The notes under the pieces were generated by a model. That model was not told where the DNA came from, made no database searches, and saw nothing but the letters and a program-made list of their open reading frames with translations. A program made the translations under genes and the position numbers. From positions 434,001 to 498,000 of the forward strand of contig NZ_FAOZ01000004.1 of the NCBI RefSeq assembly GCF_001536285.1: 64,000 nt of DNA, given 5' to 3'. The stretch comes from Parafrankia irregularis. GTDB taxonomy: Bacteria; Actinomycetota; Actinomycetes; Frankiales; Frankiaceae. Below are positions 27,721-32,339 of the stretch, piece by piece (position 1 is the stretch's first letter; each line of letters begins with the position of its first letter).

Positions 27721-29442
27721 ATGCCTGTGAGTCCTTCTGGTGAAGTGGTTGCATCGGGTGTCCCGGCGAATCTCGCCGAGGATATGACCATTGCCGAGCA
27801 GCATGAGTGGCTGCAGACCTACCTCCGCCGCCGCCCGGTCAGCCGCCGCGGCCTGCTGCTCAACGGCCTGGCGGGCGCCGGGGCGGCCAGCCTGCTCGGT
27901 ACCCCGTTCGGACGGGCCGCCTACGCGGCGACGAACACCGACAGCCCCCTGGTCATCGGTGGCCGGCACACCGCCTTCGGGGCGGACCCGTCCGCGCAGC
28001 TACGCCTCGCGGCGCAGCTCTCCCGCAACCCGGGCCGCGGCCGGATCCTCGTCGACTTCGGCACCGACCGCCGCCTCGGGCACACCACCGAGGCCGAGAT
28101 CCGCCCGCTGCTCTCCCAGGTACCGCAGCTGGACGGCTCGATCTTCTCGGTCGAGCAGTACTACGTCCACGCCGCGTTCGACCGGCTGAGCCCGGGCCGC
28201 GAGTACTACTACCGCTTCCGGGTTCCGGGCGGGGCGGCGACGGCCGTGCAGTCCGTCCGCACCGGCCACCGCAAGGGCCGGGGCGGCGGCTCGTTCCGCT
28301 TCACGATGATGGGTGACCACGGCTCGAACACCACGCCCGCCGGCGACCCGGCCGGCATGTTCGACGACAACTACTACGCGGCCGCCAACGACCCGACCAC
28401 CCCGCACGCCACGAACATCACCACCGCCATCGCGCGCCAGGACCCGGTGTTCCACCTGCTCGCCGGCGACATCTGCTACGCCGACCCGTCCGGCGCGGGC
28501 CGGCCGCCGGTGCACACCACCGTGGCGGGCACCGTACCGTCCGGCTACGACAACTTCGACCCGACCGTCTGGGACGTCTACCTGGCCGGCATCGAGGTGA
28601 GCAGCGCCCGTACCCCGTGGATGTTCGCCACCGGCAACCACGACATGGAGGCGCTCTACTCGTCGCACGGCTACGGCGGCCACCTCGCCCGGCTCGACCT
28701 GCCGAACAGCGGCCCCAGGGGCTGCCCGAGCGTGTACTCGTTCGTCTACGGCAACGTCGCGGTGCTCTCCCTCGACGCGAACGACGTCAGCTATGAGATC
28801 AGGACGAACACCGGCTACTCGGGCGGCGCGCAGACGTCCTGGGTGGAGCGGACGCTGAAGGCCTACCGCAACGACCCGGACATCGACTTCATCGTCTGCT
28901 TCTTCCACCACTGCGCCTACTCGACGACGCTTCAGCACGCCAGCGACGGCGGCGTCCGCGCGGCGTGGTCCCCGCTGTTCGACAAGTACTCCGTCGACCT
29001 CGTGATGCAGGGGCACAACCACCTGTACGAGCGCACCGACCCGATCCGCGCCGCCGCCCCGACCCGGGAGGCCCCCGACGGCTCCACGATCGAGCCGGCC
29101 AGGGACGGCACCACCTACATCACCGCCGGCAGCGCCGGGCGCCCCCGCTACGCGTTCCAGGCCGGTGAGCCCGAGTCCTACCGCGGGCACATCGTCGCGG
29201 GCTCGAACGTCGTCCCGAACAGCTACGCCTGGCAGTCCGACGGCACGAAGCTGACCGAGTCCATCAGCTGGTCGCGGACCAGGTTCGACAACTACGCCTT
29301 CGTGGCCATCGAGTCGGACCCGGGCCGGCCGGGCGGCACCTCGACGCTGACCGTGCGCGGCATCGACGAGTACAGCAAGGAGTTCGACCGGGTCGTCCTG
29401 CGCCGCTCGGTCCCGCGTGCCGGGCACTACGGCCACCGCTGA
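27721..29442 (+). CDS. Secreted purple acid phosphatase-type metallophosphoesterase
   Basis: A 573-residue exported enzyme. A Tat signal is visible near residues 38-70 (RRPVSRRGLLLNGLAGAGAA). An Fn3-like purple-acid-phosphatase N-domain follows (SPGREYYYRFRVPGG). The catalytic domain has all dimetal motifs: GDHG, GDICYAD, GNHDME, FFHHCAY and MQGHNHLYER. These enzymes hydrolyse phosphate monoesters outside the cell, typically to scavenge phosphate. ATG 27721 is used; the longer frame lacks a leader. The TGA lies within three 8-base CGCTGAGC units. A similar promoter motif occurs before the phosphoesterase at 35945, so shared control is possible. Confidence 0.9.
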   Translation: MPVSPSGEVVASGVPANLAEDMTIAEQHEWLQTYLRRRPVSRRGLLLNGLAGAGAASLLGTPFGRAAYAATNTDSPLVIGGRHTAFGADPSAQLRLAAQLSRNPGRGRILVDFGTDRRLGHTTEAEIRPLLSQVPQLDGSIFSVEQYYVHAAFDRLSPGREYYYRFRVPGGAATAVQSVRTGHRKGRGGGSFRFTMMGDHGSNTTPAGDPAGMFDDNYYAAANDPTTPHATNITTAIARQDPVFHLLAGDICYADPSGAGRPPVHTTVAGTVPSGYDNFDPTVWDVYLAGIEVSSARTPWMFATGNHDMEALYSSHGYGGHLARLDLPNSGPRGCPSVYSFVYGNVAVLSLDANDVSYEIRTNTGYSGGAQTSWVERTLKAYRNDPDIDFIVCFFHHCAYSTTLQHASDGGVRAAWSPLFDKYSVDLVMQGHNHLYERTDPIRAAAPTREAPDGSTIEPARDGTTYITAGSAGRPRYAFQAGEPESYRGHIVAGSNVVPNSYAWQSDGTKLTESISWSRTRFDNYAFVAIESDPGRPGGTSTLTVRGIDEYSKEFDRVVLRRSVPRAGHYGHR

Positions 29443-29493
29443 GCTGCTGAGCCGCTGAGCCGTCGTGTCTCCCGCCCTCGTGCCGGTGCGGCG

Positions 29494-30402
29494 TCAAGCC
29501 CTGCGGAACGGGGCGGCGAGCTGGCCGATCCAGTCCGCGGGAAGCGCCCGGCCGATTCCGTATTTGGCGGGCATCGAGCGCGGGAGATACGCGGTGCGGA
29601 ACAGCCAGTCCCAGATGGACAGCACCGCGCCGTAGTTGCGGTTCACGGCCGCGGGCTCGTCGGCATGATGCCAGTGGTGGAAGGCGGGGGTCACGAACAC
29701 GGCGCTGAGCGGCCGAAGCGTGATCCGGGTGTTCGCGTGCGCAAGGAACGGAAAGTAGAACTGGAATACCAGGAATGCCGCCGAGAACTTCAGGTCGAAG
29801 CCGATCGCATACACGGGAACGACCGTCACGACCAGATTGATGATCTGGTCGAGTGGGTGGCCCCGGCTGGTGGAGAGCCAGTCCAGACTGGTGCTTGAGT
29901 GGTGCACCGAGTGCAGCCGCCACAACAGCGGGATCTCGTGGAGTGCACGGTGGCCCGCGTAGTTCGCCAGGTCGGCGAGAAGGACCAGGACGACGAACTG
30001 GACCCAGCCCGGCCGGCTGAGCACATAGTCGCGCAGGGCCGGCGGGACGGCCGCGTGCAGCGCCGGCGCGATCAGGTTGAGCGTCAGCACCGCGACGATC
30101 GTTATCGGCAGGCGGTTGGCGAAGCTGTGCACCACGTCGACGAGCCAGTCCCCGCGTGGTGGCCGGCGTACCAGCGGGACGAACTGTTCGAGCGGGATGA
30201 AGAGCAGTGCGCAGATCACGAAGCCGACCAGCAGCTGGGGTCGTTCCAGCACCCCGGCGAGGACCGCGACGGCGGTGGCTCCTACCGCTGCCACCTGTGT
30301 CAGCCGCCCGGCACGGGGCTCCCGGGCCGGTGTGACCGGCCCGGGAGACGAGACGGACGGGCCTGGGCCGGGGAATGCCGGAACGGATGATGCGGTCGAC
30401 AT
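29494..30402 (-). CDS. Sterol desaturase/fatty acid hydroxylase family protein
   Basis: A 302-residue integral membrane di-iron enzyme (PF04116). About five hydrophobic segments surround three His clusters: HRALHE, HSVHHSS and HHWHHAD, with an additional HANTR His. Members hydroxylate or desaturate fatty acids, sterols, carotenoids or hopanoids. ATG 30402 has GAAAGGACG ahead. It is downstream of two tandem small-peptide genes on the same strand, with 127 bases between, so it may share their transcript. Substrate unknown; a lipid is likely. Confidence 0.85.
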   Translation of the reverse strand: MSTASSVPAFPGPGPSVSSPGPVTPAREPRAGRLTQVAAVGATAVAVLAGVLERPQLLVGFVICALLFIPLEQFVPLVRRPPRGDWLVDVVHSFANRLPITIVAVLTLNLIAPALHAAVPPALRDYVLSRPGWVQFVVLVLLADLANYAGHRALHEIPLLWRLHSVHHSSTSLDWLSTSRGHPLDQIINLVVTVVPVYAIGFDLKFSAAFLVFQFYFPFLAHANTRITLRPLSAVFVTPAFHHWHHADEPAAVNRNYGAVLSIWDWLFRTAYLPRSMPAKYGIGRALPADWIGQLAAPFRRA

Positions 30403-30529
30403 CGTCGTCCTTTCAGCGAGCCTTTTCCGTCTCATGTCTGTCGAGTGCCGTAAAGCGCAGGCCGGAGCCGACGGTGGAAAAGGCTCAGTTCTTCGGCATG
30501 CCCGCCCGTCACCGCGGGATGCGGTGTGC

Positions 30530-30736
30530 CTACTTGAGGACGATCACGATCGGGCCGCCCTTGATCGGGCCACCGACGCCGCCGCCGATCGGAATCACAC
30601 CGGCGTCGGAGGTCGCGCCGCTGAACCAGCTGGTGTGGGAGGCGGAGAGCGCACCACCGGCCAGACCGGCGGCCAGGGCCGCGACCAGGATCGCGCGGCC
30701 GGCGGAACGCTGCAGGAACGTGTGGGCAGTGGCCAT
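30530..30736 (-). CDS. Small secreted-type peptide, tandem copy 2
   Basis: 68 residues: MATAHTFLQRSAGRA, a hydrophobic Ala/Gly/Leu segment at about 15-30, then SASHTSWFSGATSDAG and a Gly-rich tail ending GGPIVIVLK. It shares 36 of the first 46 residues with the peptide encoded at 30783-30992; the tails differ. GAGAGGAATTG precedes the ATG. The segment could be a signal peptide (cleavage near SAS) or a membrane anchor. No Cys, so not a typical bacteriocin. Family unknown. Neighbour of a lipid-hydroxylase-fold gene. Confidence 0.75.
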   Translation of the reverse strand: MATAHTFLQRSAGRAILVAALAAGLAGGALSASHTSWFSGATSDAGVIPIGGGVGGPIKGGPIVIVLK

Positions 30737-30782
30737 TTCAATTCCTCTCTCGAAGAGCGTGTGCTGTCCTCGGGTGCACGGG

Positions 30783-30992
30783 TCAGTCGGCGGGCCGGAT
30801 GATGATCGGGCCGGTCTTGAGCGTGCCGCCGTTGCCAATCCCGATCCGCACGAGTCCGGCGTCGGAGGTCGCGCCGTCGAACCAGCCCGGGTGCGATGCG
30901 GACAGCGCGCCGCCGGCAATGCCGGCCGCGAGGGCGGCAATGAGGACAGCGCGGCCCGTGGAGCGCTGCAGGAATGTGTGGACCGCCGTCAT
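30783..30992 (-). CDS. Small secreted-type peptide, tandem copy 1
   Basis: 69 residues: MTAVHTFLQRSTGRA, a hydrophobic segment at about 15-30, SASHPGWFDGATSDAG, then a tail GNGGTLKTGPIIIRPAD. AAAGGGGATT lies just ahead of the ATG. It is the upstream partner of the 30530 peptide, separated by 46 bases, and the identical HTFLQRS and GATSDAG blocks show recent duplication with conservation at the protein level. It could be an exported structural peptide, a signal, or a precursor; none can be proved from sequence. Confidence 0.75.
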   Translation of the reverse strand: MTAVHTFLQRSTGRAVLIAALAAGIAGGALSASHPGWFDGATSDAGLVRIGIGNGGTLKTGPIIIRPAD

Positions 30993-31334
30993 GTGAATCC
31001 CCTTTCGCCTGCGGAGCGAGACGCCGGGAGTAATTTCGCGGGCGCCCGCGCCGACTGAGAACATCCCGTGGCCGGGCGGCCATGGGGACTTTGCGGCCGG
31101 TCAGCACGGTAATCCGTTCCGGCTCGGATGAAGGCTAGGCCGCGATGCTTTCCGCGTACAGGCGGAAGTGCGGTTGCCGGTTACCCGGAAATCAGGATGC
31201 GGGTAGGCCGGTCACGTGACGGGGGGCCCGCGCGATGCGAGTATGTCCCGACGCGGCGGTGGCACCGGTGGCACCGGTGGCACAGGGGCACCAGGGGCCC
31301 GGCCCTGGGCGCGAGGCGTGGCTAGGAGCGGAGC
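30993..31334. other. Divergent intergenic region, peptide pair/LLM enzyme
   Basis: 342 bases. Positions 31253-31290 carry short tandem repeats of CACCGGTGG type. The region 31010-31140 should hold the peptide promoter. No gene seen. Confidence 0.4.
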
Positions 31335-32339
31335 ATGCAGGCAGGTGACCTTCCCGACGGCGGAGCGGCTCCGGTCGTGACCGAGCGATGGGGGATGACG
31401 ATCCCGCTGCCGGACAGCCCGCTGCCGGACCTGCCGGCGCTGTGCACCCGGCTCGCCGACGCCGGCTACACCGATGTCTGGTCGTCGGAGGCCACGGCGG
31501 GGGACGGCGTCATCCCGCTGGCGCTGGCCGCCGCCGAACCGCGCCTACGCCTGGGCAGCGCGATCCTGCCGGTGTACACCCGCGGCCCGGCGCTGCTGGC
31601 CCAGACCGCCGCGACGCTCGCCGCGGCCGCACCCGGCCGGTTCGTGCTGGGCCTCGGCACCTCCTCCAACGTGATCGTGTCGAACTGGAACTCCATCCCT
31701 TTCACGAAGCCGTACCAGCGGGTTCTGGACACCGTTCGGTTCCTGCGCGCCGCCTTCGCCGGCGAGAAGGTCGACGAGGAGTTCCCGTCGTTCACGATCC
31801 GCGGGTTCCGGCTCGGGATCACTCCGCCGGCACCGCCGAAGATCATGGTGGCGGCGCTGCGCCCGCGGATGCTGGAGCTCGCCGGCCGCGAGGCGGACGG
31901 GGTCATCCTCAACTGGCTCTCGCCGCAGGACTGCGACACCGTCCTGCCACACGTGCACAAGCATCGCCCGGACGCCGAGGTGGTCGCCCGGATCTTCGTC
32001 CACGTGCACGACGGTGACCCGGCGCAGGCCAGGGCCCGGCTGCGGCCGTTGATCGCCGCGTATCTCACGGTGCCGGTGTACCGGCAGTTTCACGTCTGGC
32101 TGGGCCGCGAGCAGGCGCTCGCCGGCATGTGGCAGGCGTGGGAGGCCGGTGACCGCCGCGCCGCGCTGACCGCGATCCCGGACGAGGTGGTGGACGACCT
32201 GATCGTGCACGGGACGGTCGAGCAGTGCCGGGCCCGCCTGCGGCGCTACGTCGAGCACGGTGTGACCACCCCCGTCCTCGCGCTGACGAACACCGGCCCG
32301 AACCTTCCGGACGTCATGTCCGCCCTCGCCGCCCGCTGA
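31335..32339 (+). CDS. LLM-class F420-dependent oxidoreductase
   Basis: A 334-residue luciferase-like enzyme: RWGMTIPLPDSPLPDLPALC, GYTDVWSSEATAGDG, LRLGSAILPVYTRGPALLAQ, APGRFVLGLGTSSNVIV and GREADGVILNWLSP. This pattern is that of the F420-dependent methylene-H4MPT-reductase-like subgroup abundant in mycobacteria and Frankia. ATG 31335 has GGAG at 31326. Convergent with the Lrp-type gene. The TGA lies in the first of two perfect 14-base GCCCGCTGACACCC units. Substrate unknown. Confidence 0.85.
   Translation: MQAGDLPDGGAAPVVTERWGMTIPLPDSPLPDLPALCTRLADAGYTDVWSSEATAGDGVIPLALAAAEPRLRLGSAILPVYTRGPALLAQTAATLAAAAPGRFVLGLGTSSNVIVSNWNSIPFTKPYQRVLDTVRFLRAAFAGEKVDEEFPSFTIRGFRLGITPPAPPKIMVAALRPRMLELAGREADGVILNWLSPQDCDTVLPHVHKHRPDAEVVARIFVHVHDGDPAQARARLRPLIAAYLTVPVYRQFHVWLGREQALAGMWQAWEAGDRRAALTAIPDEVVDDLIVHGTVEQCRARLRRYVEHGVTTPVLALTNTGPNLPDVMSALAAR

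Follow-up and report, generated by a model that had tools for sequence, protein, structure and literature searches.

A narrow family of small, probably membrane-spanning peptides encoded directly upstream of a membrane hydroxylase in Frankia-type bacteria

The locus lies within a 64,000-nt stretch of the 9.5-Mb genome of Parafrankia irregularis (RefSeq assembly GCF_001536285.1, contig NZ_FAOZ01000004.1, positions 434,001 to 498,000), hereafter called the window. Two small open reading frames and the gene of a membrane hydroxylase follow each other on the minus strand, from 30992 to 29494, in the order pep1, pep2, hydroxylase (Table 1). The first-pass annotation of this DNA had pointed out two small ORFs, each with its own strong ribosome-binding site, and a membrane hydroxylase gene downstream on the same strand, and all of this was borne out: Shine–Dalgarno-like sites precede both small ORFs (GAAAGGGGATTCAC-ATG and GAGAGGAATTGAA-ATG, one each), and the two peptides are homologous (68% identity). 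For the hydroxylase, the ATG at 30402 (GAAAGGACGACG-ATG), with the better ribosome-binding site, is a likelier start than the ATG at 30435, which would yield a longer protein; measured from the former, 127 nt separate the peptide and hydroxylase genes. Neither a terminator-like site nor a consensus sigma-70 promoter was seen in 29400–31400 of the window, and no RNA family from Rfam in 29300–31500.

Table 1. Coordinates of the features of the peptide–hydroxylase locus in the window.
Feature	Position	Strand	Description
pep1, leading gene of the unit, predicted to encode a small membrane peptide	30783..30992	-	69 aa; ORF and ribosome-binding site GAAAGGGG; homologues in 8 genomes
pep2, paralogue of pep1	30530..30736	-	68 aa; ribosome-binding site GAGAGGAAT
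Membrane hydroxylase of the FA_hydroxylase family (PF04116)	29494..30402	-	302 aa; Pfam match, three His boxes, AlphaFold model
Upstream element, diverged copy of TGAACnnnkGRTGTC	31180..31194	-	Here TGATTTCCGGGTAAC; starts 202 nt before the pep1 ATG
-10-like TANNNT (TAGCCT)	31132..31137	-	Starts 57 nt downstream of the element's first base

Homologues of the peptide were found in eight out of 35 Frankiales genomes at E < 1e-10: G000, G002 (F. canadensis), G004 (F. gtarii), G007 (Frankia sp. AgB32), G009, G017 (Parafrankia colletiae), G018, and G020 (Parafrankia sp. EUN1f). In four further Frankiales genomes the sole matches were weak (E between 6.6e-4 and 7.8e-3) and fell within frames of 430–525 aa. 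A class-wide profile search over 393 genomes, in which the best 15 first-look candidates per genome were scored (the best five in another search), recovered the same eight; the matches in six other genomes were confined to frames of 210–1052 aa, with E between 4.6e-4 and 8.7e-3. These weak matches inside long frames were rejected as chance likeness of signal-like segments. A peptide scan of genome contigs yielded no relative, and pep2 had no match among plasmids. When the 35 Frankiales genomes were searched separately for the close hydroxylase (E < 1e-50), exactly the eight peptide genomes were obtained; weaker matches (E ≤ 1e-10) were a remnant in G006 and relatives in G029 (41%) and G014 (32%). 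In all eight genomes, the hydroxylase (a remnant in G020) lies directly downstream of the peptide on the same strand, and the genome search did not find the peptides occurring broadly without the enzyme. The pairing suggested by the first-pass annotation is thus strongly supported, with one enzyme and one peptide truncated, and the linkage is stronger than its reader could know: given the homologues accompanied by the same hydroxylase in eight genomes and the peptide dN/dS below 1, the pairing is more than chance. Certain Frankia-type bacteria of soil and nodules thus have an undescribed narrow family of peptides of about 70 residues, probably membrane-spanning, encoded directly 5' of an iron-dependent membrane hydroxylase. 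Frankiaceae, known for nitrogen-fixing plant nodules, thereby gain a small-protein family tied to an orphan membrane hydroxylase.

The peptide–hydroxylase pair is compact (1.2–1.5 kb), and all nine intact peptides have an AAAGG, AAGGG or AGAGG-type site 6–8 nt 5' of the ATG. The gap between the peptide and the hydroxylase is about 110–145 nt in the other genomes with a full-length enzyme (in G002 the enzyme start is uncertain, and in G017 the gap is measured from the peptide remnant); in G018 it is 19 nt, to a start that has no clear ribosome-binding site. Ahead of the module, the pattern TGAACnnnkGRTGTC is exact in six out of eight genomes and degenerate in the window and G020. In four genomes, the distance from the start of the element to the first ATG is 203–205 nt, and in G018 it is 121 nt; in G017, the element starts 313 nt ahead of where the peptide remnant ends. 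A TANNNT hexamer starts 54 nt from its first base in six out of six exact copies, and 57 nt in G020 as in the window. Across the eight module genomes the pattern matched 19 times (six at the module and 13 elsewhere, 0–5 per genome), compared with five matches of a reversed control pattern; as the alignment had been inspected before the pattern was chosen, these counts are evidence of conservation and not an independent test. By eye, a TGTC-N8-GACA dyad overlaps the element; it is perfect in G004, G007 and G009 and nearly perfect in G017 and G018; G002 has a weak version and the window none. In an unbiased pairwise comparison of 30-mers, the upstream element stood above 15 shuffles in only three out of ten pairs (G007–G004, G007–G018 and G004–G018), and no pair involving the window or G002 exceeded the shuffles. 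Most copies of the module thus appear to have a common promoter-like element upstream.

The location of the small ORFs between this element and the enzyme gene, together with their strong ribosome-binding sites, could be that of regulatory upstream ORFs, where translation of the peptide, and not its product, sets expression of the hydroxylase. We consider this highly improbable: the peptides are conserved at the level of residues over their whole length (see below), the gap before the enzyme in most genomes is as long as stated above, and G020 keeps two peptides after most of its enzyme gene has been lost.

The hydroxylase matches PF04116 at 99.5 bits (gathering cut-off 31) and has three His boxes (HRALH at 151, HSVHH at 164, and HHWHH at 242, numbering of the 302-aa protein), confirming the type of enzyme named in the first reading. 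Residues H155, H164, H167, H168, H242, H243, H245, and H246 are invariant in 27 aligned rows, and H151 is nearly so. The AlphaFold model has a mean pLDDT of 88, and its best solved neighbour is the hydroxylase domain of yeast Scs7p (Z 5.3, rmsd 4.9, 164 aligned); in a second look with VIA-align, with 45 chains aligned, the Scs7p entries were the only ones listed, at a Z of no more than 5.3. A Foldseek search with the model gave no match at E ≤ 0.001, and phmmer gave none among PDB sequences. The module enzyme resembles the FA_hydroxylase superfamily (Scs7p, bacterial sterol-desaturase-like proteins) in the Pfam match, the three His boxes, and the helical model, and differs from it in the constant small-peptide partner genes and in residues 214–225. 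This run, located beside a conserved His, belongs to a set of 40 residues that are fixed in the five rows from Frankiaceae and seldom seen in the 22 distant homologues; these clade-specific residues could reflect contact with the peptide or simply common descent.

PF04116 enzymes are known to act on lipids or sterols; the family is large, and its bacterial members are, to our knowledge, mostly without an assigned substrate. The first-pass annotation had offered a modified or lipid-associated peptide system as one reading; the lipid-associated part is plausible from the enzyme family, and the modified-peptide part is less likely. The sole NCBIfam match of the hydroxylase was OlsE, at 117.1 bits, far below the cut-off of 475. 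OlsE is described as hydroxylating the ornithine part of ornithine lipids (PMC3972451), and the module enzyme has in common with it that this was the only NCBIfam model matched, and differs in the low score. PF13444, the domain of the OlsB-type acyltransferase that would make the substrate, had no match in seven out of eight module genomes, including that of the window. G004 had a partial match (24.2 bits against a cut-off of 22.4), the module-free G001 had one match, and the controls, E. coli and Bacteroides, were matched. Due to the score and the lack of PF13444 matches in seven of the eight genomes, an orthodox OlsE identity was rejected, and ornithine lipid seems an unlikely substrate.

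The alignment of nine peptides has 27 invariant columns across residues 1–63. Mean pairwise identity is 0.67 for residues 1–14, 0.65 for 15–33, 0.76 for 34–46, 0.74 for the tail 47–63, and 0.34 for residues 64–69, so that, as far as the alignment tells, only the last six or so residues vary freely. The tail of pep2, PIGGGVGGPIKGGPIVI, agrees with the family consensus. The conserved front and variable tail described in the first-pass annotation are therefore seen between the two window paralogues (identity 0.53 in 47–63) and at the extreme C-terminus, and not across species. In simple pairwise counts, the peptide dN/dS ranges from 0.14 to 0.68 and is below 1 in 36 out of 36 pairs (0.26 for pep1 and 0.39 for pep2 against their G020 orthologues), and that of the hydroxylase from 0.13 to 0.36 (21 pairs); the substitutions suggest purifying selection on both. 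The peptides look like real, conserved genes.

The Gly-rich tail is no less conserved than the front, so the argument by which these peptides had been likened to precursor or signal peptides with a variable tail fails. Moreover, none has a lipobox Cys after the hydrophobic segment (Cys is absent in eight out of nine peptides, and the single Cys of the G018 peptide is at position 7, before this segment). A related possibility is a RiPP-like system, in which the enzyme would hydroxylate the tail or leader of precursor peptides before their export. The peptides come first, they are duplicated in two genomes (the window and G020), they have a hydrophobic N-terminal segment, and the enzyme is their only constant neighbour in the visible flanks; the last six residues vary, and one tail has a repeated GGPIK unit. 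The likeness to known RiPP precursor–enzyme pairs, one or more small genes 5' of an oxidative enzyme, ends there: instead of a conserved leader and a diversified core, the tail 47–63 is kept like the rest, and no maturation or export genes (peptidase, transporter, second tailoring enzyme) are common to the visible flanks, four of the eight modules being near a contig end. The lipid and sterol substrates of PF04116 enzymes also speak against such a system, and open PMC papers yielded none joining fatty acid hydroxylase, precursor peptide, and RiPP. Taking all this together, we regard it as unlikely. That the membrane di-iron enzyme oxidatively modifies, for example hydroxylates, its own cognate transmembrane peptide, which would be an undescribed class of pairs and a RiPP-like chemistry of Frankia, seems quite improbable.

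Residues 15–33 of the peptides are hydrophobic (KD 1.9–2.4), the N-terminal side is acid-free with a charge of +1 or +2, and the motifs G24xxxG28 and G27xxxS31 are invariant in nine out of nine. The hydrophobic segment is followed by W-F, within the conserved part HxxWFxG..SDAG..GGPIKGGPIVI. GxxxG is known to favour helix packing, and W-F often marks the membrane interface; the hydrophobic segment with GxxxG/GxxxS and W-F fits a single-pass membrane protein. In the AlphaFold model, whose confidence is low (mean pLDDT 59), residues 3–33 form one helix ahead of a disordered tail; this and the positive, acid-free N-terminal side also suit a single-pass protein. No significant matches of the peptides were obtained in Pfam, NCBIfam, PHROGs or PADLOC (the last two at E 0.1), and the best PDB match had E 1.7. 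HpnN, the sole NCBIfam match of pep1 (10.8 bits, E 0.085), was rejected.

A cleaved signal sequence would also account for the charge of the N-region, the hydrophobic core, and the small residues ahead of H34, and the conserved part downstream could then be the mature portion of an exported structural or signalling peptide, with about 36 Gly/Pro-rich residues outside the cell and the hydroxylase adapting the membrane. By eye, however, there is no canonical AxA site near residue 33 (SAS, or SIT/SVT, is found instead), and the invariant G24xxxG28 and G27xxxS31 exceed what a signal peptide needs. Export of a cleaved peptide thus seems rather unlikely.

The modules reside in differing surroundings. 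The window, G020, and G017 have a common neighbourhood (MFS-TetR-...-LLM oxidoreductase), in which the G017 module is inverted relative to its neighbours. G009, with both flanks visible, has other neighbours than these three; G007 and G002, with only the downstream flank visible, differ from each other and from these four genomes, and the same is true of G004 and G018, with only the upstream flank visible. Since upstream-only views are not comparable with downstream-only ones, at least four separate genomic settings are demonstrable, and six at most. Weak family-level likenesses occur kilobases from the modules (46% for G004–G018, 32% for G004–G017); within the visible flanks, only the peptide and the hydroxylase are constant. 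The modules of G002, G004, G007, and G018 lie within ~0.5 kb of a contig end, with one flank unseen, a hint that repeats or insertion sequences may adjoin the module. In G021 (L120:8981–9923) the site is empty: the same MFS-TetR and LLM-AsnC-MFS neighbours stand there without the peptides, the hydroxylase, or the phosphoesterase. The last is a convergent metallophosphoesterase gene (PF00149; 27568–29442 in the window), which adjoins the module in the window and G020 and was not found in G017 or G021; in the window, its product has an SRRGLLLNG stretch resembling a twin-arginine motif.

Two modules have decayed. In G020, two intact peptides accompany a hydroxylase reduced to residues 225–311 (of 313), with the first two His boxes lost; in G017, the first ~25 peptide residues are lost and the enzyme is kept, its first His box now reading RRALH. 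Both are draft assemblies. Given these losses, neither gene strictly needs the other in the short term, and the peptide–hydroxylase unit is gained and lost easily. The hydroxylase remnant of G006 (47 residues, L056:1500–1650, frameshifted by eye) is flanked by an oxidoreductase-like frame and by one that by eye looks SulP/STAS-like; no peptide match was found in this genome.

Small hydrophobic peptides with a patchy distribution (eight out of 35) and differing settings, one copy (G009) lying ~2 kb from an ORF that by eye resembles a serine recombinase, bring to mind a membrane-active bacteriocin or toxin-like peptide, against which the hydroxylase would protect the producer by altering its lipids. 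We judge this to be decidedly unlikely, as neither PADLOC nor PHROGs gave a match at E 0.1, and keeping both peptides beside an enzyme without two of its three His boxes, as in G020, would be self-harming, which weakens the immunity role of the enzyme.

The best explanation, to which we would give about an even chance, is that the peptide is a small accessory membrane partner of a lipid hydroxylase. The peptide would be a single-pass small membrane protein, N-in and C-out, whose invariant G24xxxG28/G27xxxS31 helix may pack on the hydroxylase or on itself, while the HxxWFxG interface and the Gly/Pro tail would sit outside the membrane; there it might stabilise the hydroxylase or gate access to it. 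Through its His-coordinated di-iron centre, the enzyme would hydroxylate a lipid of the membrane, which is probably not ornithine lipid; the presence of both pep1 and pep2 would reflect duplication of the partner subunit. Most likely, the peptide and the hydroxylase act as two parts of one device for the chemical alteration of membrane lipids. The partner reading agrees with the single predicted hydrophobic helix (prediction and hydropathy), with the constant linkage to one membrane enzyme, and with the 40 residues shared by the hydroxylases that travel with peptides. Against it stand the G020 peptides, which persist without the first two His boxes of the enzyme, the G017 enzyme, which persists with a truncated peptide, the low confidence of the peptide model, and the gene order, as peptides before the enzyme are usual for RiPPs too.

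Small membrane partners are known in respiratory and transport complexes (CydX, AcrZ); no such partner of a lipid-type di-iron hydroxylase is known to us, and none was described in the titles and abstracts of open PMC papers. As far as CydX of cytochrome bd is described in PMC4325964, the module peptide has in common with it a single predicted helix, a strong ribosome-binding site, constant linkage to an enzyme, and patchy gain and loss. It differs in being longer (68–73 vs 37 aa), located upstream of the enzyme, and provided with a Gly/Pro tail, and its partner is a lipid-type hydroxylase; the two are likened by action, not by family membership. A term search in the main text of an exoproteome paper (PMC11093716) found no mention of desaturase or hydroxylase. 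The peptide–hydroxylase pair could give a substrate to a large hydroxylase family, and it can be transferred to a laboratory host.

Outside the module genomes, distant hydroxylase relatives (27–44% identity) were found at 34 loci, 26 of them in Alphaproteobacteria. Together with L055, L057, and L058 these make 37 distant loci, none of which has the peptide next to the hydroxylase; in 9122 six-frame segments of L055–L097, with the module loci (L059–L062 and L076) set aside, the best match to the peptide profile had E ≥ 0.6. At 16 out of 37 distant loci, some of them near-duplicates, a relative of PEMT/ICMT-like membrane methyltransferases is encoded within 300 nt (Pfam was checked on six proteins), which points to lipid chemistry; the alphaproteobacterial hydroxylase and methyltransferase are possibly a lipid hydroxylation–methylation pair. 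Such alphaproteobacterial loci include L064, L065, L066, L068, L074, L081, L082, and others. A further scan of the 37 loci looked for small ORFs of 35–110 aa that stop shortly before the enzyme gene, encode a hydrophobic segment, and are preceded by an RBS-like site. There were three hits, two of which are tail pieces of a methyltransferase frame. The remaining one is an unrelated 52-aa ORF in a Hydrogenophilus MAG (L095:5538–5696), which stops ~10 nt short of where a distant FA_hydroxylase relative probably starts and has a tail with what is presumably a PEP-CTERM-like motif; it is either a second, independent small-peptide-plus-hydroxylase arrangement or a coincidence. In an Actinomycetes MAG (L063:5443–6816), the hydroxylase has a long N-terminal extension, weakly DUF7144-like (24.4 bits, cut-off 27).
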